Part shown: positions 12,665-22,889 of the stretch, piece after piece | Layout: each line of letters begins with the position of its first letter | Numbering within the stretch: position 1 is the stretch's first letter | NCBI GenBank assembly: GCA_021792635.1 | Contig: JAJYUH010000006.1 | Location: 62,001-126,000 of the forward strand | Length of the DNA stretch: 64,000 bases | Source of the DNA: Natronospirales bacterium | Lineage (GTDB): Bacteria; Pseudomonadota; Gammaproteobacteria; Natronospirales; REEB76 | Direction: 5' to 3' | Program-made: the position numbers and the translations under genes | The notes under the pieces: model-generated | Database searches by the model: none | What the model was told of the DNA's origin: nothing | What the model saw: only the letters and a program-made list of their open reading frames with translations

Positions 12665-13423
12665 TTGAACTTCTCGAACAAAATCATTCTCATCACCGGC
12701 GCCGCCCGCGGCATCGGCCGCGCCACGGCCGAAGCCTTTGCCCGCCTCGGCGGCATGGTGGCGGTTCATTACCACACCAGCCGCACACAGGCCGAACAGC
12801 TCGTTCGGACATTGGCCGGCAAGAATCACCGCACCTTCGGCGCCGATCTCACCGATCCTGCTGCCTGCGAATCACTGATCAACGACGTGATGAAGCATTA
12901 CGGCCGGCTGGACGTACTGGTGAATAATGCCGGCATCTACGACGTGAAACCGCTCAGGGATTTGAGTTACGCCGATTGGCAGAAGACCTGGAAAACCACC
13001 CTGGGCGCGAATCTCCTCGGCCCCGCGAATCTGTGCTTCCTGGCCGCGAAAATCATGATGCAGCAAAGCAGCGGCCACATCATCAACATCTCCTCCCGCG
13101 GCGCCTTCCGCGGCGAGCCCGACGCGCTTCCCTACGGCGCCTCCAAAGCAGGCCTGAACCAACTGTCGCAATCCCTCGCCCAGGCGCTCGCGCCCTGGAA
13201 CATCTTCGTGGGCGTGGTGGCGCCCGGTTTCGTGCGCACCGACATGGCGGCGGAACTGCTGGACGGCCCGCAGGGCGAAGCCATCCGCAAGCAAAGCCCG
13301 CTTGGACGAGTAGCCACGCCGGAGGAAATCGCCGAAGCCGTGATCCGGCTCGCGGCCGACGGCATGCTGTACGCCACCGGCTGCATCCTGGATGTGAACG
13401 GCGCGTCGTATTTGCGCACTTGA
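12665..13423 (+). CDS. Short-chain dehydrogenase/reductase
   Basis: A 252-residue classical SDR. The start is taken at the TTG at 12665: GAGGG lies about seven bases upstream, an in-frame stop lies just before that, and the cofactor motif begins at once. TGAARGIG binds NAD(P), NNAG stabilises the central sheet, ISSRG and YGASKAG carry the catalytic Ser and Tyr-Lys, and ILDVNGASYLR is the usual C-terminus of FabG-like members. A preference for NADP is suggested by the basic residue after the glycine motif but is not certain. A truncated copy of its last 70 codons is present at 14086-14328. Confidence 0.92.
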   Translation: MNFSNKIILITGAARGIGRATAEAFARLGGMVAVHYHTSRTQAEQLVRTLAGKNHRTFGADLTDPAACESLINDVMKHYGRLDVLVNNAGIYDVKPLRDLSYADWQKTWKTTLGANLLGPANLCFLAAKIMMQQSSGHIINISSRGAFRGEPDALPYGASKAGLNQLSQSLAQALAPWNIFVGVVAPGFVRTDMAAELLDGPQGEAIRKQSPLGRVATPEEIAEAVIRLAADGMLYATGCILDVNGASYLRT

Positions 13424-13489
13424 GAACTCACAATCAGTCCGCTTTGCGCGCGAACGGAATAGCGCAGTCGTATCGCTGAATAATCTCGA

Positions 13490-13732
13490 CTAGCGAGAAG
13501 ATCGTGCCGGCCGTTCCGGTGAGCCATGCAACCCGCTCAGCACAGTGACTTCTTCGAGCACACCGGTGTCACCCGCACGCTTGGAAGTCTCCAGCAGTTC
13601 AATACCCACCAGATGTCCCTCGGCATCGTAATCGGCAATCATGCCCGGTGCAATTTCCTCACTGCTCTCGATGTCAGCGCCGGTGAGATCCAGGTACACC
13701 GCGTCCGCGGCTTTATCCACTCTCACGCGCAT
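13490..13732 (-). CDS. DUF2283 family protein
   Basis: An 80-residue protein matching the DUF2283 pattern: VRVDKAADAVYLDLT at the start and MIADYDAEGHLVGIELL in the middle, followed by a variable tail. These small proteins commonly sit beside DUF4258 genes in chromosomal islands and are suspected to be antitoxin-like. Here the start overlaps the end of the DUF4258 gene by ten bases, so translation is probably coupled. The pairing is seen; the toxin-antitoxin role is inference. Confidence 0.75.
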   Translation of the reverse strand: MRVRVDKAADAVYLDLTGADIESSEEIAPGMIADYDAEGHLVGIELLETSKRAGDTGVLEEVTVLSGLHGSPERPARSSR

Positions 13733-13953
13733 GGTTTTCTCCTGTCAAAATACGCCGTGACGCCATACTGCGGGTCGTCTATCCGCGTCACCACCCGTAG
13801 TTTCTTCCCGTGCTCCGGATGGCATTTCAGAAAGGAACGCTTGTTGTCGCGTACTTCTTGCTCATCCGGAAACCTCAGAGCAGCCTCGACCCATTCCCGC
13901 TGAATCCCGCGACGCACCATTTGGAAGAGAGCATGTGGATCATAGCGTGCCAT
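13723..13953 (-). CDS. DUF4258 family protein
   Basis: A 76-residue protein with the DUF4258 layout: HALFQMVRRGI near the start, a short acidic helix (WVEAALRFPDE), then beta strands KKLRVVTRIDDPQYGVTAYF. DUF4258 is distantly related to the RelE/BrnT-like mRNA interferase fold. It is the first gene of a two-gene unit with the DUF2283 protein. The unit lies inside a stretch rich in broken gene copies, fitting the usual setting of small toxin-antitoxin-like modules. Toxicity has not been shown for this family member. Confidence 0.72.
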   Translation of the reverse strand: MARYDPHALFQMVRRGIQREWVEAALRFPDEQEVRDNKRSFLKCHPEHGKKLRVVTRIDDPQYGVTAYFDRRKPCA

Positions 13954-14085
13954 CAGGCCGTGTCTCTGGGGAGAAGGTGATCAAAGTATACCTTGGCGCA
14001 ATGACGATCATACGCAAATAGTGTCTCCTCCGCCTGGCCACCGGCCCGGAAGCTCGTGGGGCACTCACGTCCTGAAACGTTCTTG

Positions 14086-14328
14086 TCGAGTTGGCGGCGG
14101 GGTTTCACTTACACCGGCATGGCAACAGAGTTGCTGAATGGCCCGGAGGGTGAAGCCATCCGCGCACAGAGCCCCCTGAAGCGCGAAGCCACGCCGGAGG
14201 AAATCGCCGAAGCCGTGATCCGGCTCACCGCCGCCGGCATGCTGTACGCCACCGGCTGCATCCTGGACGTGAACGGCGCGTCGTATTTGAGGAGCCGAGA
14301 ATTTCTGAAGGGGTTGCTTTATATGTGA
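14086..14328 (+). pseudogene. C-terminal fragment of the SDR gene
   Basis: Residues from about GMATELLNGPEGEAIRAQSP to LDVNGASYLR match the last 70 residues of the SDR at 12665-13423, including a run of identical DNA around ATPEEIAEAVIRL. The Rossmann motif, Ser and Tyr-Lys are missing. After the match the frame runs on into unrelated, AT-richer sequence (SREFLKGLLYM). It is a dead partial duplicate in the same orientation as the intact gene, 0.7 kb away. Confidence 0.85.
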
Positions 14329-14405
14329 GGAATAGCTCCGCCAAACAATTCGCTAACAAACAGACCGTACCGGGCGATGCAGCGGGAATTGCATGTGGTC
14401 GAGTC

Positions 14406-14434
14406 TTGACAAGCCGTTGTATTTACTATATCTA
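14406..14434 (+). promoter_or_regulatory. Sigma-70-like promoter of the small zinc-ribbon gene
   Basis: TTGACA at 14406-14411 is a perfect -35 hexamer. A -10 element lies within TATATCTA at 14427-14434, with spacing of 15-17 bases depending on the register. The predicted transcript starts near 14440, about 30 bases before the zinc-ribbon start codon and its AGGAG site. Confidence 0.55.
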
Positions 14435-14469
14435 TTTTTGCGAGCGAGCTGTAAGTGTAAGGAGCAAAA

Positions 14470-14655
14470 ATGTCTGCGTGCCCCGGTAGAAGGTTGAACG
14501 GACGATCACAATGCAATGCTACTCTTTATCGTTGTGAAGCGTGCGGAAATGTTGGATGTGTGCAAAAGGACTGCAGTAATGTTGCTTTCGGGCAAGTCCG
14601 TAATAAATGCTTAAGGTGTGGCGCATACGGAAAAGCTAAGAGATTTTATGGGTAG
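14470..14655 (+). CDS. Small Cys-rich (zinc-ribbon-like) protein
   Basis: A 61-residue protein with a clean ribosome binding site (AAGGAG, then six bases, then ATG) and a strong promoter upstream. It contains CEAC, then CVQKDC, and later CLRC, an arrangement that could hold one zinc ion in a treble-clef or ribbon. The rest is basic. I do not recognise a family. The AT-rich DNA here (about 14.3-15.5 kb) differs from the flanks and suggests a transferred segment, perhaps phage- or plasmid-derived. It is followed by two GIY-YIG-like genes, the first of them broken. Confidence 0.6.
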   Translation: MSACPGRRLNGRSQCNATLYRCEACGNVGCVQKDCSNVAFGQVRNKCLRCGAYGKAKRFYG

Positions 14656-14700
14656 CGGGTTCATGCTTCCGATCCGGAAGAGACCCGACTGGAGGAGACT

Positions 14701-14905
14701 ATGAATTTCTTCGATGTCTACGGCCCCTATGACTTACCCCGTCCGAAGAATAATAAAGAGGATTATTTCTGACGAGAAGAAACGCCGTCAGAATTTTTGG
14801 GAAGGTATCAAACACAAAAATAAAAAAATCCTGAATCCTGGGTTATCTGAAGCATGCGGCTGTTATTACGTGGAGCGATAAATTGTGCGTAGGTTACGCA
14901 GCCGC
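14701..14905 (+). pseudogene. Broken copy of the GIY-YIG-like gene
   Basis: A GGAGG site and ATG at 14701 start MNFFDVYGPYDLPRP, which mirrors MNFKVYGPYLLPRN of the intact gene at 14961. The frame stops after 23 codons. In another frame, SDEKKRRQNFW and LSEACGCYY continue the similarity, and a third frame recovers DKLCVGYAA. At least two frameshifts therefore interrupt it, and the C-terminal two thirds are missing. It is a degenerate tandem duplicate, still carrying its own translation signal. Confidence 0.78.
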
Positions 14906-14960
14906 ATACTGCTAAATCTCTGGATCGAACTCTGACTGGATTATTCGACAGGAGGTGGTT

Positions 14961-15476
14961 ATGAATTTCAAGGTGTACGGCCCATATCTATTACCTCGTA
15001 ATGAGAGGTTCGTTACAAACGAGAAGAAAAAACGTCAAGAATTTTTGAATTCTTTGGATGAAGATGTCGCTGGATTATCCCAAGCGTGCGGTTGTTATGT
15101 TTTTTTGGTGGGTAAGAAAGCCTGGTACGTTGGCATGACAGGAAAAAATACCTTTGAAAAAGAGTGCTTTGGGGCACACAAGCTAAACTTATACAACAGA
15201 GCACTTCAAATCAAAAAGTCCGTACCAAGACTTATCCTGATTCCAGGGCAGACGAGGAAAGGAAAATTCACGAAACCTGGGAAAAATGGAAATAAGAACA
15301 TCGAGATGTTGGAGCGGTTGTTAATCGGTGCTGCGCTTCAGCATAACAAGAAGCTTTTGAATATTAGAGACGCAGCGAGATTGCGGAAAATACGTGTTCC
15401 TGGATTTATCAATACCGGTCAGGGAGGGGCAAACGCGAAAGCAGTAAGAGTCTTTAAAACTGCGATCGGTTTATAA
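14961..15476 (+). CDS. GIY-YIG-like domain protein
   Basis: A 171-residue protein from the ATG at 14961, preceded by AGGAGG at ideal spacing. The core CGCYVFLVGKKAWYVGMTGK resembles the GIY and YVG strands of GIY-YIG endonucleases, followed by a short helix with Phe and Glu. The rest is Lys-rich (KGKFTKPGKNGNK). Members of this variant are found in mobile regions and cleave or nick DNA in better-known relatives. Whether this one is catalytic is uncertain because the usual Arg/Glu pair cannot be placed with confidence. The DNA is AT-rich compared with the neighbourhood, and a broken copy precedes it. Confidence 0.65.
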   Translation: MNFKVYGPYLLPRNERFVTNEKKKRQEFLNSLDEDVAGLSQACGCYVFLVGKKAWYVGMTGKNTFEKECFGAHKLNLYNRALQIKKSVPRLILIPGQTRKGKFTKPGKNGNKNIEMLERLLIGAALQHNKKLLNIRDAARLRKIRVPGFINTGQGGANAKAVRVFKTAIGL

Positions 15477-15483
15477 GGTGCCG

Positions 15484-15660
15484 CTAGCGAATTACCTGAG
15501 CATCATTTTTGAACTCGCACCAACTTAAACACGAAGCCTTGGCATCATCTAAAGCATAATGCAGACGCAGTCCTGATTCATACGCCTGTTCTCTGGCGCG
15601 TTCGAATTCCTTCGCGCCCGAGGGCAACGCAAGAGGCTCATGGCTAAGATTGCCCGGCCA
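15484..15660 (-). pseudogene. C-terminal fragment of the DEDDh exonuclease gene
   Basis: On the minus strand PGNLSHEPLALPSG, FERAREQAYESGLR and HYALDDAKASCLSW parallel the last 58 residues of the exonuclease at 16231-16746 (PTKLSHQPLALPSG, FEKARERCYKSGMR, HHALDDARAARLSW). Upstream of this the similarity stops abruptly and no start with the DTE motif is present. It is a diverged partial duplicate in the same orientation as the intact gene, separated from it by the antitoxin gene. Confidence 0.8.
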
Positions 15661-15774
15661 GGGAATGATCGTATGCACGCACTTGTGGCCGGCTAACTTC
15701 GCCTCGCTGCGCTCGGAACGCCTGGTTACTTTTGGCATGTCGTCGGCTGGTCGCCTGCTTGTCATAGCACATAG

Positions 15775-15852
15775 GAGCGCGATGAGGCGATTCGCATCAT
15801 CAGCGCCCGTGTCGCAACTCCCTCTGAAAGGCGAATTTATGAAAAAAGGTAA
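15775..15852 (+). pseudogene. C-terminal remnant of a BrnT-family toxin
   Basis: After an in-frame TAG at 15772, the frame reads ERDEAIRIISARVATPSER then RIYEKR and ends at TAA 15850-15852. The segment EAIRIISAR followed by a Ser/Arg-rich tail is the standard C-terminus of BrnT ribonuclease toxins. The N-terminal two thirds are gone; their place is taken by unrelated sequence running into the exonuclease fragment. The stop overlaps the start of the following antitoxin, as in intact modules. It cannot encode an active toxin. Confidence 0.75.
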
Positions 15853-16102
15853 ACCTCACTCCGACGATCTGCAGCCTGAATACAAGCGCTCTGACTTCGC
15901 AAAGCTGGAGCGCGGCCGCTACTACGATCGTATGAAGGCCAGCTCGAACGTTGTGGTCCTCGATGCCAAAGTTTCAGCAGTATTTCCTAACTCGGCCGCT
16001 GTAAATAAGGTACTCCACTCGCTTGTTGATGTTGCACAAAAGGCCACGGATCTGCCCAGAAGTTCCAGCCGGCGCCCTCGCGTTCGGCTCGGCCGCGGCT
16101 GA
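15839..16102 (+). CDS. Orphan antitoxin (BrnT-associated)
   Basis: An 87-residue protein from the ATG at 15839. The block DDLQPEYKRSDFAKLERG followed by SSNVVVLDAKVSAVFPNSAAVN is typical of antitoxins found downstream of BrnT toxins; the second part resembles a short ribbon-helix DNA-binding segment. It overlaps the brnT remnant by 14 bases. The last 20 residues are Arg/Ser-rich and may be extended beyond the normal end. With its toxin truncated it is an orphan that could still act as a repressor or protect against a related toxin elsewhere; that is inference. Confidence 0.68.
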   Translation: MKKGKPHSDDLQPEYKRSDFAKLERGRYYDRMKASSNVVVLDAKVSAVFPNSAAVNKVLHSLVDVAQKATDLPRSSSRRPRVRLGRG

Positions 16103-16230
16103 GCTGTGGCGTTGTGCGGACCCGCACAGCCTTGATAGAACGATATCGTGGTGCGCGATTATAGTAGATTCCCATGCATATCATGTGCTGCGCACTTGAT
16201 GCCACCCACGTTTTAACGTGAGCAGGAAAT

Positions 16231-16746
16231 TTACGAGCTGATCCGGAGCTTTTCATTTACCGCTATCCAGCTCAGGCGCGCGGCTCTTGCATCGTCCAAC
16301 GCATGATGTTCCCGCATCCCTGACTTGTAACAACGCTCGCGGGCCTTTTCGAACACTTCGACGCCAGACGGAAGTGCCAGCGGCTGATGGCTAAGTTTGG
16401 TTGGCCAGGAGTTGGCTGCGTAGCAGATTTTCTGAATCCATTCCCAGTCCGCTGCTACCGCGTCGGTGGCAATCCGCACCGGACGGCCGAAGGCGGCAAC
16501 CCATGCCGGCAGGCGTTCCGTGAGTTCATCCCAGGTCATTTGGAACTTGCCGCCCTCCAATAATGGCAACACCTGCTCCTGTACGAAGGGATCGCACTCC
16601 TCCATTCCCCAGGTGTCCGTGAGTTCCGCATAGAACTCGCGCCCGTCCTCACTCACGAGCGCAATGCTGATGAGGTTGGGCTCGGACATGAGACCGGTGA
16701 ATTCGGTGTCCAGAAACAGCAGCAGGGGTTCGGTCGGGGTTTGCAT
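16231..16746 (-). CDS. DEDDh-type 3'-5' exonuclease
   Basis: A 171-residue protein from the ATG at 16746. FLDTEFTGL supplies the first Asp-x-Glu, TDAVAADW a central Asp, and HHALDDARA the His-x4-Asp of the DEDDh family (RNase T / epsilon-like fold). Two metal ions would be held for hydrolysis of DNA or RNA ends. A longer upstream open frame lacks family features and overlaps the neighbouring gene, so I do not use it. It is the last gene of a minus-strand row behind the cupin gene (50-base gap), the Cas4-like nuclease and the AAA+ ATPase. A degenerate copy of its tail lies at 15484-15660. Confidence 0.82.
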   Translation of the reverse strand: MQTPTEPLLLFLDTEFTGLMSEPNLISIALVSEDGREFYAELTDTWGMEECDPFVQEQVLPLLEGGKFQMTWDELTERLPAWVAAFGRPVRIATDAVAADWEWIQKICYAANSWPTKLSHQPLALPSGVEVFEKARERCYKSGMREHHALDDARAARLSWIAVNEKLRISS

Positions 16747-16796
16747 GTAAGAAGCAATGCCTCTGTCGGGCGAGTGCGAGATCATGCCGCGCGCCG

Positions 16797-17219
16797 CTAT
16801 CCGTTGGAACGATGAAAGCCCCAAGTGCGCACACACGGGCCGGTAATAAGCAAAGTCCACACGGGTCCGTAGATAATTTCGAGACGGTGTGCGGTGACCG
16901 CTCGTCGCCAGGCCATGCTTACCGCATGCCGCTCCTTGATGCGCCAAGGCACGTCCGTGACGCGCACATACGGCGTCGGCGAATTGGGAAAGCCCGCCAG
17001 AATCTCGCGATAGGCGCCTTTCAGCATGATACTCACGAAACCCCACGGATGATCGTGCAACGCGGCATCAGGATCATCGCGCAGGATGCAGTGCAGAAAG
17101 ACATTGAACCAGCGGTTTTCGGGCAGCAGACACCAGCGCAGCAGGTAGGGATGCCGCGGGTCCCCGATAATCTCATCGGGTGGCCGGGCAATCGGAAACC
17201 GAAACGCTCGCCTGATCAT
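16797..17219 (-). CDS. Small cupin-like protein
   Basis: A 140-residue single-domain protein. HDHPWGFVSIMLKGAYRE carries the His-x-His of a cupin metal site, and a later AHRLE provides a third possible His. The Trp-rich C-terminus (WTLLITGPCVRTWGFH) is typical of short cupins that I associate with phage and island genes. It may bind a metal and act as dioxygenase, isomerase or ligand sensor; nothing decides between these. Its start overlaps the stop of the Cas4-like nuclease gene in an ATGA, so translation is coupled and the two products probably work together. Confidence 0.72.
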   Translation of the reverse strand: MIRRAFRFPIARPPDEIIGDPRHPYLLRWCLLPENRWFNVFLHCILRDDPDAALHDHPWGFVSIMLKGAYREILAGFPNSPTPYVRVTDVPWRIKERHAVSMAWRRAVTAHRLEIIYGPVWTLLITGPCVRTWGFHRSNG

Positions 17220-18694
17220 GCGCTCCGCTTCCGGCGTTTGCCGTGCTGCAGGAAACGCGCCACTTCCAGCATGGCGAGCGTGTCGCGCTCGCAGTATTGC
17301 AGGAGCGCCTGGCGCAGCGTTTGGCGGTGCTCCGCGGCCGTCTCCCCCGCAATCAGTTCAAGATACGCCGCGCTGGCGGCTCCGCCCTCGCGGATTTCCT
17401 CCAGGTTTTGGTAATCCAGCTCCGGCGCAATGGTTGGCAGCACCGATTTGATGGACCAGCTTCCCTGCATGGCCGGGTGATAATAGCTCTTGCGCGTGAG
17501 GGCGCATAAATCCACGAGTCTTGCCGTTATGGCCGATAGCGGCTTTTTCAAATCCGGAAAGCGCTCGGCCAATGCATTCAAGATTCGTTTTTCGTAAGGG
17601 CTGTACACCAGTACCGGCCCGCGCCGCCCCGCAGCCTTGATCACCGCTTCGGCAAAGGCCCGCATGGGTGGCGTGCCGTCATCGTGCAAAAATTCCGTGT
17701 TGCTCAAGTGGCCATCCTGCTGCTCCACATGACAGGAGAACTGGAACGGCAGCGCCTCGTAGGGGCGCGTTTCCGCCCAGATGGGGACGGCAAAACTCAC
17801 GGTTTCAAAGTCCAGGTAATAACGCGGATAGCCCAATTCCTCGAGAGCCGCCCGGGCGTCCGGTTTGAGTTCCGGTTTGCCGCTGCACGTGATCCGATGC
17901 ACCCATTTCTGCACATCGGTCCGGATGCGTTCCGGGGGCACTTCGCGCAGGTCCGCGTAACCACCCGCCAGCAGCTCATAAACCTTGTCGCCGATGCGTG
18001 GCAGGTTGATTACCGGGTAATCCGCCCTCGGCCAGCAGTGATGCACGAAAGGACATTCGTACGGTTCAAAGCATTGCTTGCCGATGGCGATGTTCGGCGT
18101 TCGCCCCGCGAGTATGCGCTTCAATTCCCGAACAATGCCTGGCATCTCGGGAAACAAGGCACGCACGGCCTGACGTATGTCCTGATACACAAACAGTCCC
18201 GCGTAATCGCCGTCGCCGCGATACAGAAAATCCCGGTTGATATAGCCGAGCTGGATTTCGCGCAACTGGTGGCCGGCGCGTTCGACAACCCAGGCTTGTA
18301 CGGCCACATCCAGGTCATGTTCAGGCTTCGGTTCCGTGGATGATTTAATTTCAATGAGACTCAACTTGCCGGTCTTGTTTTTCCGCAGCACGTCGCAACG
18401 CACCAGTACGCCTTCGGCCCGGAAGGCCGCCTCGAACAGCGTGAGCGATCCCTTGCAGACCAGATGCGCTTCCGTTTCCCTGAGCGCTTGACCGAGATTC
18501 TCCTGGTGCTCGATCAGAACGCCTTCCGGAAACTGCCGGCGGGCCGCCTCACCCACCTTATGGCCGGTGGTGAAAGCCGCCTCCCGACTTTCGTCCAGCT
18601 CCGCCAGTTCCGGGCGGTGAACTTCGAGATACAGACGCTTCGGGCATTGCCGGCCCGAGAGGATTTTTGATTTCGACAGGCGATATTCACGCAT
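17216..18694 (-). CDS. Cas4-like nuclease fused to DUF2779 (DEDD-type) domain
   Basis: A 492-residue, two-domain protein. The N-terminal half looks like a Cas4/AddB-type PD-(D/E)xK nuclease: Cys17, then Asp101 and EIK at 115-117, and Cys208, Cys214 and Cys220, four cysteines that could bind an iron-sulfur cluster. The second half (from about 285) is DUF2779, an RNase-H-like fold starting with YYLDFETVSF (Asp295, Glu297) and including PVLVYSPYEKRIL. Cas4-type enzymes trim DNA ends with exonuclease activity. There is no CRISPR array or other cas gene, so a CRISPR role is unlikely. The gene starts 12 bases behind the AAA+ ATPase and overlaps the cupin gene. Confidence 0.82.
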   Translation of the reverse strand: MREYRLSKSKILSGRQCPKRLYLEVHRPELAELDESREAAFTTGHKVGEAARRQFPEGVLIEHQENLGQALRETEAHLVCKGSLTLFEAAFRAEGVLVRCDVLRKNKTGKLSLIEIKSSTEPKPEHDLDVAVQAWVVERAGHQLREIQLGYINRDFLYRGDGDYAGLFVYQDIRQAVRALFPEMPGIVRELKRILAGRTPNIAIGKQCFEPYECPFVHHCWPRADYPVINLPRIGDKVYELLAGGYADLREVPPERIRTDVQKWVHRITCSGKPELKPDARAALEELGYPRYYLDFETVSFAVPIWAETRPYEALPFQFSCHVEQQDGHLSNTEFLHDDGTPPMRAFAEAVIKAAGRRGPVLVYSPYEKRILNALAERFPDLKKPLSAITARLVDLCALTRKSYYHPAMQGSWSIKSVLPTIAPELDYQNLEEIREGGAASAAYLELIAGETAAEHRQTLRQALLQYCERDTLAMLEVARFLQHGKRRKRSA

Positions 18695-18706
18695 GTTGCG
18701 TTCTCC

Positions 18707-20887
18707 TCAATTCAGAGTGGCAGTGAATCCGACGGGTCTGCTGGAATCGCGCTGTTTCATCCGGCATTCGTCTTCAAGACCCCGGATCAGCCGTTCCGCA
18801 TTGAGCGCCGCGCCGAAAACCCTGGCCTTGCGCACCACCACGGCAAAATCTCCGGGCGCGAGGTTACCGAGCCGGTTGAGCCGTTTTTCAGTCTCCGCAT
18901 CCAGGGGGTTCTGGCCGTGCTCGTCCAACACCGATAGAAACAAATCGTGTGCCTGCTGCGGGTTGAGATAATTGAAGCGAATCTTGAAATCAAAACGCCG
19001 CAGCGACGCCGCGTCCAGCGTATCCATCAGGTTGGTGGAGGCGATGAAGATACCTTCGAAGGCTTCCATTTGCGTCAGTACTTCGTTCACCTGCGTGACC
19101 TCCCAGCTTGCGTATGCGCCACGGCGCTCACGCAGGAAACTGTCGGCTTCATCGAGCAATAGCACTGCGCCTTCACGCTCGGCATCGCGAAACATCGAGG
19201 CGATATTTCGCTCGGACATTCCCACCCACATGCTTAAGAGATCGGAGGCCGGTTTGACCAACAACGGCTTGTCGAGCTGTTCGGCGAGATGGCGTCCAAA
19301 AGCGGTCTTGCCGGTGCCGGGCGGACCGTAAAGGCACAGGCGCGCTCGAGTACAGTGCCGCAGGCCGGACACCAGTGCGGTCAGATCGGTGTCGGAATTC
19401 GAATACTCGGGCGCGTAGGGTGTGGACGGAGGCTCGATCGCCATCGGCCGACACAGCAGCCCCATGGCATCGAGCGTATGCTCCACCACCCGCCGCAGGG
19501 TTGCGTCGGCCTGCGCCTCGTCCCGGATTTCAAGCCTGCGCAATACCGCGGCGGCATTCGCCACCACAGCCGGCGCCAAGGCCTCGTGTTCCGCCAGCGC
19601 TCGGATGCAGGCCGGTGACACGGGAATGCCGTTCAGATGTTTGGCAAAACTTCGGCTCCGGGTCGCGCGCGTGCCGCCCCGCAGTTCCACGATGTACTGG
19701 AAGCGACGCAGATACGCGGGATCTATGCTTTCGACGGAGTTGGTCAGCCATAGAGTGGGCACCGGATTTTCCTCCAACAGGCGGTTGATGGCTGCCTTGG
19801 TCTGCCCGCCGGGTTTCGTGGTGAACAGGGAGAAAAACGGCGCATCGCCGCCGAATACGTCCTCGGCTTCGTCAAATACCACCAGCGCATCCGGGTTGCG
19901 TACCAGCACCCGCTGGCTCAAGGCATAGGCACGCAACCGCTGTTTGCCGTCCAGGGCTTCGTGATCCTTGGCTTCCTCCGTAGCCACCTCGTAAAGGGGC
20001 CGGGCGAGCACCTCAGCAAGGACCCGGGTCAGTTGCGTTTTGCCGACGCCCGGGTTGCCATAAATCAGGAAATTGACTCCCGGCTCCGCACGGGCGCGCA
20101 CACCGTGAAGATAATCCCGCATCAGCGCAAAGTCATCGGCATGGCCGGCAAAATCAGCCGGCGCCAGATCGGCCCGCCCGGCCCGGCGGAAGTAGCGTTG
20201 GAAAATGCTGAGCGTGTCGCCGTGCTCAGCCAGCAGCGTTTCCATGAGCCCCTCCAGAAGTTCCAGCCGGTCGGTCAGGTCCAGATGGAAGCACTCAGTG
20301 CCCTTCAGACGCAGCAGTCCGGAGCGAACCAACGGGCCGTCCGTTGAGAGCGCCAAGCGTATCTCTTCTGCGGGCGCTCGCAGGATGCATGCGAGCTGCT
20401 GCATGTGCGAAAGATCGCTTGCCGAGCCAAGCCCCTCGGTAACCTGATGCAGCCAGCCCAAGTGTGTAATCAGCAGCACAAACTGCACCAGCAGGCATTC
20501 GGTGGCATTGAGCCCAAGGGTCTCGGCGAGACGATTGAGGTTGCGTCCAAATAGGTCTTGCCCGTCCGGCACGGGCAGCGTAAACGTTTTGAGGCAGCGG
20601 CGCAGCGCACGCGGAAGTTCACGTTTCAGGTACTTGCCGGGGTTCTCTTCACCGGGTGCCCGTGCTTCATCTTCCCAGCCCTCGCAGCGATCATAAACGT
20701 CAAGCAAGGTGCGTAACTCGAAGAGTTCCAGCACTTCTCGGAACAGGTCATTGCCAAAGTCAATATCCGGAAAAAGCTTGCGTACTACGCCAAGTTCCAC
20801 CAGCATCCGCAGGCCCCAGAGCTTGCCGAGTTCTTCATAGGCCGGAATAACTCCGGCAGGGGACATCGCATTCTTGCTGTTCGTCAT
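18707..20887 (-). CDS. Tandem AAA+ ATPase (two AAA domains)
   Basis: A 726-residue protein from the ATG at 20887, preceded by GGAG. A helical region of about 270 residues comes first. AAA domain 1 has Walker A GNPGVGKT (about 277-284), Walker B ALVVFDEAED and a TNSVESID sensor. AAA domain 2 has GPPGTGKT (about 521-528), a pore-loop-like MWVGMSE, Walker B AVLLLDEADS and STNLMDTLD. Arg pairs (YLRRF, SLRRFDF) follow each. Both ATP sites appear intact, as in CDC48-like remodelling machines, but the N-terminal region matches no adaptor I know. It heads the operon and is divergent from a WYL regulator, suggesting an inducible remodeller that works with the two nucleases. Confidence 0.85.
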   Translation of the reverse strand: MTNSKNAMSPAGVIPAYEELGKLWGLRMLVELGVVRKLFPDIDFGNDLFREVLELFELRTLLDVYDRCEGWEDEARAPGEENPGKYLKRELPRALRRCLKTFTLPVPDGQDLFGRNLNRLAETLGLNATECLLVQFVLLITHLGWLHQVTEGLGSASDLSHMQQLACILRAPAEEIRLALSTDGPLVRSGLLRLKGTECFHLDLTDRLELLEGLMETLLAEHGDTLSIFQRYFRRAGRADLAPADFAGHADDFALMRDYLHGVRARAEPGVNFLIYGNPGVGKTQLTRVLAEVLARPLYEVATEEAKDHEALDGKQRLRAYALSQRVLVRNPDALVVFDEAEDVFGGDAPFFSLFTTKPGGQTKAAINRLLEENPVPTLWLTNSVESIDPAYLRRFQYIVELRGGTRATRSRSFAKHLNGIPVSPACIRALAEHEALAPAVVANAAAVLRRLEIRDEAQADATLRRVVEHTLDAMGLLCRPMAIEPPSTPYAPEYSNSDTDLTALVSGLRHCTRARLCLYGPPGTGKTAFGRHLAEQLDKPLLVKPASDLLSMWVGMSERNIASMFRDAEREGAVLLLDEADSFLRERRGAYASWEVTQVNEVLTQMEAFEGIFIASTNLMDTLDAASLRRFDFKIRFNYLNPQQAHDLFLSVLDEHGQNPLDAETEKRLNRLGNLAPGDFAVVVRKARVFGAALNAERLIRGLEDECRMKQRDSSRPVGFTATLN

Positions 20888-20935
20888 GAGGGCGCTCTCC
20901 AATGCGTTTCACCTGCGCACAGGATAGCCGTGCCC

Positions 20936-20954
20936 TGCGACAATTCCTGTCGCA
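20936..20954. promoter_or_regulatory. Perfect palindrome in the WYL/AAA divergent promoter region
   Basis: TGCGACA at 20936-20942 and TGTCGCA at 20948-20954 form a perfect 7-5-7 inverted repeat. It lies between the divergent start codons, 42 bases from the WYL gene and 48 from the ATPase gene. This is the size and position expected of a dimeric repressor site; the WYL protein next door is the natural candidate to bind it and to control both transcripts. Confidence 0.65.
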
Positions 20955-20996
20955 CTGATGTGCTACCGTGTAACCGCTCAAAACGGAGGAACGGAC

Positions 20997-21992
20997 ATGG
21001 CCGACAAGCTGCTGCGTCTGCTCGCGATGCTGGAGCAGATTCCCCGGGCACCTTACAAGCGATCGCCGACTGAAATCCGCGCTCGGCTTGCTCAGGTTGG
21101 CTACCTGACCGACGTGCGCAGCGTGCAGCGCGATCTCGAATCCCTGATCGGGCGCTTGCCTATTGAGGCCGACCGGCGCAACAAGCCCTACGGCTGGCAC
21201 TGGTCGAAGGCGGCTCGTCCTCTGAATCTGCCGCGCATGACTACCGCCGAGGCCACGACCTACCGCCTGGTGGGGATGTTTCTGCGGGATCTCCTGCCTG
21301 GCTCGGTGCTGCAAGCTCTCCAGCCGCAGATGCAGGCGGCCGAGCAGGTGCTTGCGACACTGCCCCACGGAGGGTTTCGGGATTGGAGCCGCAAGGTCCG
21401 TTTGCTGCCGCCCGGCCAGCCGCTGATTGCACCGCAGGTCAAACCAGCAGTGCTCGCGCAGCTCTACGAAGCGTTGCTCACCAGCCGCCGGATAAGCGCC
21501 CGGTATCGTCCGGTGGGAGAATCAGGTCCGCGTCCTTACAAGGAACTGAGTCCGCTCGGTCTCGTGCTCCGGGGCCGGGTGCTCTATTTACTCTGCACCG
21601 TGTTCGAATACAGTGACGTGCTGCAGTTCGCCGCCCACCGCTTCGTCGAGGCGGCGTTGCTCGACAAGACCGCGAACCGGCCGGATAGTTTCGATCTGGA
21701 TACCTACATACAGGCGAACAACTTCGATTTTCCCAAGGGAAAGTCCATTCCGCTGGAAGTGCTTTTCGAGAAAACCCTGGCAGTACATCTACAGGAGACT
21801 CCGCTGTCGAAGGACCAGACGGTGGAGCCCTTCGACCATGAGCGGGTCCGCATCCGTGCCACGGTCCGCGATACCGGTCAGCTCCGCTGGTGGCTATTGA
21901 GCTTTGGCCACCGTGTGGAAGTCCTAGCCCCGCAGGCACTCCGCACCGAAATGCAGGAAACCTGCCGCGCCATGGCACAGCGATATGCCTGA
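20997..21992 (+). CDS. WYL-domain transcriptional regulator
   Basis: A 331-residue protein from the ATG at 20997, with CGGAGGA upstream at good spacing. Residues 1-65 form a winged helix-turn-helix (RLLAMLEQIPRAP, RSVQRDLESLIGRLPI). A WYL domain follows from about 140, with ARYRPVGESG and PLGLVLRGRVLYLLC, and then a C-terminal WCX-like part. WYL proteins are ligand-responsive regulators frequently found beside defence operons such as BREX, CBASS and Pif-like loci. It is divergent from the ATPase-nuclease operon with a perfect palindrome between. It probably represses that operon and itself until a nucleotide-type signal appears; the ligand is unknown. Confidence 0.87.
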   Translation: MADKLLRLLAMLEQIPRAPYKRSPTEIRARLAQVGYLTDVRSVQRDLESLIGRLPIEADRRNKPYGWHWSKAARPLNLPRMTTAEATTYRLVGMFLRDLLPGSVLQALQPQMQAAEQVLATLPHGGFRDWSRKVRLLPPGQPLIAPQVKPAVLAQLYEALLTSRRISARYRPVGESGPRPYKELSPLGLVLRGRVLYLLCTVFEYSDVLQFAAHRFVEAALLDKTANRPDSFDLDTYIQANNFDFPKGKSIPLEVLFEKTLAVHLQETPLSKDQTVEPFDHERVRIRATVRDTGQLRWWLLSFGHRVEVLAPQALRTEMQETCRAMAQRYA

Positions 21993-22020
21993 AGACGGTG
22001 CGATCAAAATTGGACTGCCA

Positions 22021-22677
22021 ATGGACGAACGCAATATGCAGACCGGCATCCGAATCACGGTAATCGCGTTGCTGTTCGCGGCCGCCCTTTGTCCAAGCGG
22101 CGCGCTGGCGGCAACGGCTGCTCCGCACGTGCCGGTGGCCGGCCACGCAGTCCTCAACCACCAGTTGCTGATCCTTGCGCTTTGGGCTCTGGCCGGCGCT
22201 TTTCTGTTGCTGCTGGCGCTGGGCCTGACCAACCGGGTGGTGATCTTTTACGACGGTTGGGACGCGTTCTGGGCCGTCGTCCCACTTATCTCGGTGGTGG
22301 TTTCCGTGATTATCGTCATCAGCATCACCCCCGACACTGCCCACGGCGCCCCACAGGTCGGCCACACGCTCCTGCCGACCCTGGTTCTGGCGGCGGGCGG
22401 TTTCGGCGCATTGATCGGCGGAATCATGACGCTTTACAACGCGGTCAAATACAACCGGAACCTGCCGCTGGGCTTGCTGATCGGTGTCTGCAAACTGGTT
22501 ATCTCCATGCTGCTGATCACACTGTCACTCAACTATCTCCTGAACATGAACGATAAGCGCACCCGGAATCGGAACCTGTTCACGTTCCTCGTCCTGGGAG
22601 GGATTGCATGGCTGTGGCTAAAGCTCGTCAACGGCGAACGGGTTTATGAAAGGAAGGGGTGGACAACGCCGAAGTGA
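22021..22677 (+). CDS. Multi-spanning membrane protein of unknown function
   Basis: About 218 residues. A signal-like hydrophobic segment (ITVIALLFAAALC) is followed by four or five further membrane helices: LLILALWALAGAFLLLL, AVVPLISVVVSVIIVIS, LPTLVLAAGGFGALIGGI, LLIGVCKLVISMLLIT and FTFLVLGGIAWLWL. Starts at 21985 (overlapping the end of the WYL gene), 22021 and 22036 are all possible; none has a strong ribosome binding site. I recognise no family. Overlap or close spacing with the WYL gene suggests co-transcription, so it may belong to the same functional unit, but it could also be an unrelated conserved membrane protein. Confidence 0.65.
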   Translation: MDERNMQTGIRITVIALLFAAALCPSGALAATAAPHVPVAGHAVLNHQLLILALWALAGAFLLLLALGLTNRVVIFYDGWDAFWAVVPLISVVVSVIIVISITPDTAHGAPQVGHTLLPTLVLAAGGFGALIGGIMTLYNAVKYNRNLPLGLLIGVCKLVISMLLITLSLNYLLNMNDKRTRNRNLFTFLVLGGIAWLWLKLVNGERVYERKGWTTPK

Positions 22678-22889
22678 TGTACTTGCCGGCGGCTGGGGGA
22701 AATACTGTGCCGGCTGACATCAGATTCCCGATCGGACAGCGGCATTCCGGGGTGATTTGCCGGATCCCGGCGGCATGACACAATGCAATTCAAGCGGATT
22801 CCATCACGGCTGCACCGGTTCGATTTTCATGACATGATTTCGCCAGCAATCTTCGTGGGCGATCCTGCTTTCCATCAAGGACTGAATCT

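Follow-up and report, generated by a model that had tools for sequence, protein, structure and literature searches.

How defence systems recognize an infection before they fire has long been an open question. Among the described regulators with a WYL domain, DriD of Caulobacter crescentus is activated by single-stranded DNA (ssDNA) bound in that domain and recognizes the consensus ATACGAC-N7-GTCGTAT; its site overlaps the -35 region at a constant distance from the -10 region, and a bidirectional promoter lies beside driD (PMC12340889). Operators of BrxR have a 5-bp spacer (PMC9122601, PMC9122589). WYL-regulated ADP-ribosylglycohydrolase systems with chaperones have been predicted (Iyer et al. 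2022, PMC9503650), and for DUF2779, seen fused to a PD-(D/E)XK-like domain, 3'-5' exonuclease activity has been predicted (PMC3985635). Here we describe a locus in a 64,000-nt stretch of the 2.7-Mb genome of a Natronospirales bacterium (the window, which covers positions 62001-126000 of its contig; all other coordinates are window positions), in which genes for a tandem AAA+ ATPase and a Cas4-like/DUF2779 dual nuclease are divergent from a gene for a WYL regulator. At a probability of roughly 0.6, the locus is a mobile inducible conflict module, most likely anti-phage or anti-plasmid, composed of the regulator, its operator and a Cdc48-like ATPase, with the dual nuclease as the effector in this genome.

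The strongest new result of the analysis is a predicted, conserved WYL operator in the intergenic region from which the ATPase and WYL genes diverge. The ATPase gene (18707-20887, minus strand; 726 aa; two PF00004 modules; full-length match to phrog_10401, 4.5e-99) and the gene for the wHTH-WYL-WCX regulator (20997-21992, plus strand; PF13280 and PF25583) have their starts separated by 109 bp. The longest open reading frame of the WYL gene begins at 20958; the start is more likely located at 20997, which is preceded by GGAGG. Between the two starts, at 20936-20954, lies TGCGACAATTCCTGTCGCA, a putative regulator site whose perfectly inverted 7-bp arms are separated by 5 bp (TGCGACA-N5-TGTCGCA, core CGAC-N7-GTCG). 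The palindrome alone is weak evidence, since an equal inverted repeat was obtained in 20 of 500 shuffles of the intergenic region, and an automated inverted-repeat search missed it because its arms are only 7 bp long.

Other loci were next probed with the unaltered window palindrome. They were picked by similarity to the window ATPase, from 5 of 56 related genomes, 19 plasmid records, one phage-like record and genome contigs (80 loci kept); the contig loci belonged mainly to the Pseudomonadota, and also to the Nitrospirota, the Myxococcota and others. Subtracting 27 loci of a WYL-less, mainly Comamonadaceae clade from 119 ATPase loci left 92 core loci. The operator was searched from -170 to +150 of the ATPase start, with at most 2 mismatches in 14 positions, in 88 core loci excluding the window. 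It was found in 32 of them; 300 permuted half-sites averaged 0.11 loci and never exceeded 3, and other spacer lengths from 0 to 11 gave at most 1 locus each. Sites of this type occurred upstream of other genes of the same loci at 2.3%, and in 0 of 27 loci of the WYL-less clade. One relative (L051) carries a copy with exact arms at the same place, and copies with 0 to 3 mismatches surround the ATPase start in many loci. For nuclease-linked loci, the window excluded, the operator was present within 2 mismatches in 10 of 14. The ATPases of operator-bearing loci share only about 35-40% identity. In its own genome the exact operator occurs as a single copy, at 20936-20954.

Exact copies were also searched in one set of 369 gammaproteobacterial genomes, which served as the sample for all genome-level co-occurrence. 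Thirteen sites were found in 12 genomes; about 4 were expected by chance and a reversed control pattern gave 5. The WYL family was present in 7 of these 12 genomes versus 1.0 expected (p=7e-6), and exact sites lay at WYL genes of loci with no ATPase (L302, L303 and L305). A second genome sample yielded 6 new exact sites, two of them at WYL genes; the others look like chance. The operator provides a sequence tag for seeking further members of the regulon.

Exact copies with no adjacent WYL gene were observed at or just upstream of genes for Fic, recC-recB and SIR2-HerA (L304 9915-9983, L307 9979-9997 and L308 9980-9998). These sites are no more than suggestive, and chance hits are possible among them.

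The surroundings of the operator bear on the type of regulator. Of 49 promoters, 10 have a TAnnnT motif directed toward the ATPase gene at offset 9 from the operator and 4 have it at offset 8, while base frequencies predict about 0.8 per offset. Downstream of the operator, +11 A, +13 A and +15 T were each conserved at about 60%. No -35 element was found in these promoters, and a hexamer 17 bp upstream of the -10 would fall within the operator. In the window a -10-like hexamer is seen in both directions, each 9 bp from the palindrome: TATCCT (20921-20926, minus strand) on the ATPase side, at an offset that is enriched in relatives, and TACCGT (20964-20969, plus strand) on the WYL side, assigned by symmetry. 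A profile search placed structures of DriD (7tzv, 7u02, 9pfq and 8tp8; 1e-16 to 1e-17) nearest to the WYL protein, with PafBC next; neither BrxR nor CapW appeared among the structures matched at E up to 1e-5. The 5-bp spacer alone cannot decide between activator and repressor, because BrxR operators share it. Taken with the promoter layout and the structural relatives, the window protein probably activates transcription in the manner of DriD, from a conserved operator, and by analogy with DriD we infer ssDNA as its signal. The conserved palindrome turns the locus into a concrete, testable switch formed by WYL protein, operator and inducible promoter.

The preliminary description of this DNA, made from the letters alone, had proposed a candidate system of five genes. 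Their arrangement and domains were confirmed: four minus-strand genes, with a gap of 12 bp, a 4-bp overlap and a gap of 50 bp, are present and divergent from the WYL gene, and they code for two AAA modules, a DUF2779 nuclease with a Cas4-like N-half, a cupin-like protein and a DEDDh/RNase H-like exonuclease, opposite WYL and WCX domains. The set as a unit was not borne out. The cupin-like gene (16797-17219, minus strand; phrog_4786, 5e-39) and the DEDDh/RNase AS-like exonuclease gene (16231-16746, minus strand; phrog_2259, 2e-22, RNase H-like) were found in 0 of 98 other ATPase loci and in 0 of 55 related genomes; both were rejected as members of the system and are considered local passengers.

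The recurring core is the WYL regulator with the tandem AAA+ ATPase, joined by the Cas4-like/DUF2779 nuclease in a subset of loci. Among 99 ATPase-selected loci, WYL was present in 46 and the nuclease in 15; in 11 of those 15 the nuclease gene directly adjoins the ATPase gene on the same strand. The ATP-binding protein, the DUF2779 protein and the WYL protein are visible as a triple on annotated plasmids (e.g. of Rhodoferax antarcticus and Diaphorobacter). In the 369 genomes, where nuclease, ATPase and WYL families were present in 20, 25 and 30 respectively, ATPase and WYL overlapped in 16 (2.0 expected, p=5e-14), nuclease and WYL in 9 (1.6 expected, p=4e-6), and nuclease and ATPase in 7 (1.4 expected, p=1e-4); in 6 of these last 7 the two genes lay within about 8 kb on one contig. 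On the ATPase tree, a quick tree with weak deep branches, the nuclease label takes about 10 changes, at least 4 of them forced by well-supported branches; the pairing has therefore been gained or lost repeatedly. In the WYL-less clade (loci L073-L105; Variovorax, Hydrogenophaga, Ramlibacter and others) the ATPase gene was observed to be chromosomal and well conserved, and it may have been domesticated for a housekeeping role.

Both modules of the ATPase are intact, with Walker A at G277-K283 and G521-K527, the Walker B Asp-Glu pairs D339E340 and D579E580, and the RR finger pairs R394R395 and R630R631; these active-site motifs are invariant in an alignment with 57 relatives. Pfam matched PF00004 twice (8e-40). 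The AlphaFold 2 (AF2) model had a predicted local distance difference test (pLDDT) score of 89.7, and its best PDB folds were Cdc48, p97, Rix7 and NVL (best E 1.1e-17). At residues 554-556, by the alignment the usual pore-loop position, the second module carries W-V-G, where most relatives have Y-V-G; no pore-loop-like motif was seen in the first module. The N-terminal 240 residues are mostly helical in the model, and divergent. By its predicted fold the protein would be a Cdc48/p97-type double-ring unfoldase.

The nuclease gene (17216-18694, minus strand) was assigned by PF11074 for the DUF2779 half (1.2e-40) and by PADLOC as Cas4-like for the N-half (5.5e-8). In the alignment of relatives C16, D100, E114, K116, Q132, C207, C213 and C219 were invariant in the Cas4/RecB-like PD-(D/E)XK half, and D294, E296, Y466 and D470 in the RNase H-fold half. 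The protein thus appears to keep both sites, a PD-(D/E)XK site with four Fe-S cysteines and a DEDDy site. No solved structure was matched by sequence search; the AF2 model (pLDDT 92.2) folds like Cas4 (8d3l, 4.9e-5; 4ic1), SSO0001, AdnA and EXO5 in its N-half and like RNase H in its C-half. The idea that the ATPase remodels a complex and the nucleases cut, as first suggested for this locus, fits the modelled folds. The open literature on DUF2779 held nothing on defence, and among viral sequences a scan found the nuclease at 4 loci only.

The gene set lies in a mobile accessory island whose insertion site is unoccupied in relatives. Five congeneric genomes have an SDR gene followed by terC at a distance of about 15 bp to 1.1 kb, against about 9.5 kb in the window (13424-22889; the right edge may be near 22544). 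The insertion starts right after the SDR stop codon and includes the 3' end of the SDR gene a second time. One congener (G007) has its own ATPase-WYL pair, on a different contig.

Toxin-antitoxin pieces and broken genes nearby, reported earlier, were found again. The SDR 3' end (13240-13423) is repeated about 0.9 kb downstream (14056-14328), and the two copies flank a DUF2283/DUF4258 toxin-antitoxin-like pair (13490-13953); the repeat may mark the route by which the island entered. An intact gene (14955-15476), GIY-YIG-like by eye and with no match found in Pfam, PADLOC, PHROG or NCBIfam, is directly preceded upstream by a broken copy (14700-14940). A partial second DEDDh gene (15484-15765), its 5' end cut off, is 55% identical to the complete one across 56 residues.

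The module could also serve plasmid or island maintenance or competition (exclusion or stabilisation) and not anti-phage defence. The occurrence of the ATPase on 19 plasmid records, one of them adjoining a conjugation operon, is in agreement with such a role; this explanation is nevertheless very improbable, given the many chromosomal copies, a core with no toxin-antitoxin-like pair, and the association with restriction and BREX genes.

The neighbours of the 92 core loci comprised WYL (46), the nuclease (18, some of these loci having been fetched through the nuclease), Sir2 (9), an ADP-ribosylglycohydrolase fused to a phosphatase (7), HEPN (7), a ZacABC-like PLD/helicase three-gene set (5), a RecB-like helicase (5) and RtcB (4). 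Known defence genes were also found: BREX pglZ/brxD beside one relative, ZacABC with type I restriction, and GmrSD with HEPN adjoining WYL and operator. Since Sir2, ADP-ribosylglycohydrolase, HEPN, RtcB or a helicase replaces or joins the nuclease in relatives, the ATPase and WYL genes seem to form a platform on which effectors can be exchanged.

Two further arrangements were observed. The three-gene set, which is unnamed and distantly ZacABC-like (about 420 aa; a PLD-like protein of about 655 aa; an SNF2-like helicase of about 870 aa), adjoins ATPase-WYL or the nuclease in L016, L031, L035, L046, L079 and L247; ZacABC itself recurs beside two relatives, and nothing on it was found in the open literature. 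In L239 (G223:C44) a single 17-kb stretch holds two ATPases of the family, an ADP-ribosylglycohydrolase, the nuclease and WYL.

The partner counts of Sir2, ADP-ribosylglycohydrolase/phosphatase, RtcB and HEPN suggest another function, a counter-system to ADP-ribosylation or RNA damage in which the ATPase would unfold or extract phage-modified proteins, with Sir2, ADP-ribosylglycohydrolase and RtcB central and the nuclease optional. The predicted WYL-regulated systems of Iyer et al. argue in the same direction, but their description names neither the ATPase nor DUF2779, and Sir2, ADP-ribosylglycohydrolase, RtcB and HEPN are all absent from the window; this reading is decidedly unlikely.

The computations show which genes form the core, that the set is mobile, that an operator is conserved and that both enzymes keep their active sites. 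From the protein families we infer a defence activity directed at DNA-protein complexes that are invading or damaged, which may proceed in four steps. Invasion or DNA damage would produce a nucleic-acid signal, probably ssDNA as with DriD, that loads the WYL dimer. Bound to CGAC-N7-GTCG at the -35 position, the dimer would recruit RNA polymerase and switch on the ATPase-nuclease operon. The ATPase hexamer would then thread or remodel a protein on invading or replicating DNA, and the exposed ends would be degraded by the nuclease, whose Cas4-like half and 3'-5' DEDDy half may attack opposite strands or two polarities. The module is directly testable because the switch site, the predicted operator, is now located.

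Several points weigh against the conflict module. About half of the ATPase loci have no clear operator; genes of unannotated relatives were called with a simple composition-based caller, so that starts are approximate and some operators may be hidden or misplaced. Thirteen of the 20 nuclease-bearing genomes have no ATPase, and the nuclease must therefore have other roles and also work alone. The WYL-less, operator-less ATPase clade of Comamonadaceae and close relatives, which looks stably chromosomal, accounts for 27 of 98 tree rows. The regulator could instead repress, as BrxR and CapW do, and candidate ligands other than ssDNA are conceivable. Finally, the module may act in DNA repair, as an ssDNA-activated, DriD-like operon that strips stalled proteins from damaged DNA and trims ends, and would benefit the host independently of phages. 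In favour of this, the closest regulators of solved structure, DriD and PafBC, govern responses to DNA damage; half of the nuclease resembles AdnA, EXO5 and Cas4; and a recC-recB operon has an exact operator copy at its start, a single site that could be chance. A repair function is nevertheless unlikely, in view of the very patchy spread (5 of 56 relatives), the absence of the insertion from five congeners, the frequent plasmids and the rapid exchange of partner genes, which is typical of conflict systems.

The preliminary description had also proposed an accessory ATPase-nuclease module tied to a WYL regulator and lacking a name, and this much held: the module is often on plasmids, near defence genes and at a site empty in relatives, and no matching system was found in PADLOC (2023 release), Pfam or NCBIfam. 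The gene set is apparently unnamed, being unmatched in PADLOC 2023 and the open literature, while a name elsewhere is still possible. A broader proposal, which we hold tentatively, is an unnamed defence class in which a Cdc48-like unfoldase platform with exchangeable effectors is governed by one conserved DriD-like WYL operator across Proteobacteria, linking an ssDNA or DNA-damage signal to immunity. If true, bacterial immunity would gain a Cdc48-type unfoldase, paired with a nuclease of two active sites.

Among known proteins, the type II AAA+ unfoldases Cdc48/p97, Rix7 and NVL share with the window ATPase two AAA+ modules, intact ATPase motifs and the best PDB folds. The window ATPase differs in its low identity of about 20%, a first module with no usual aromatic pore motif, its origin as a bacterial accessory gene and, apparently, its helical N-domain. 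Its second module scores best against IetA in PADLOC and NCBIfam, but at 112 bits versus a cut-off of 510; IetA is a single-module protein paired with the subtilisin-like IetS, whereas the window ATPase has two modules and domain scans found no protease among the operon genes. Membership in IetAS was rejected on these grounds.

Like Cas4 and the TM0106/UU173 RecB-like nucleases, the window nuclease has a PD-(D/E)XK half with four Cys, fused to an RNase H-like exonuclease half; unlike them, it has DUF2779 in place of RNase_H_2 and an AAA+ unfoldase as partner, not Cas1/Cas2 or a helicase. A role in CRISPR adaptation was rejected, the neighbouring genes not being Cas1/Cas2 in Pfam and PADLOC scans. 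The ADP-ribosylglycohydrolase-centred, WYL/Nudix-regulated systems (Iyer et al. 2022) have in common a WYL regulator, ADP-ribosylglycohydrolase with phosphatase, and restriction-fold effectors, and some relatives' ATPase loci overlap that class; an ADP-ribosylglycohydrolase was found in none of the scanned island genes.

BrxR and CapW resemble the window regulator in wHTH-WYL-WCX architecture, in an inverted-repeat operator (with a 5-bp spacer for BrxR) and in their place beside defence genes. Both repress, whereas the window promoter layout suggests an activator; a BREX or BrxR-controlled system was rejected, since Pfam and PADLOC found no BREX gene in the operon. DriD shares WYL-WCX homology, the operator core CGAC-N7-GTCG, an operator replacing the -35 at a fixed distance from the -10, and a divergent promoter with the regulator gene. 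The two differ in the outer bases of the operator, TG..CA in the window and ATA..TAT for DriD, and in their targets, which are didA/bapE/recJ for DriD and, as predicted here, the ATPase-nuclease module.

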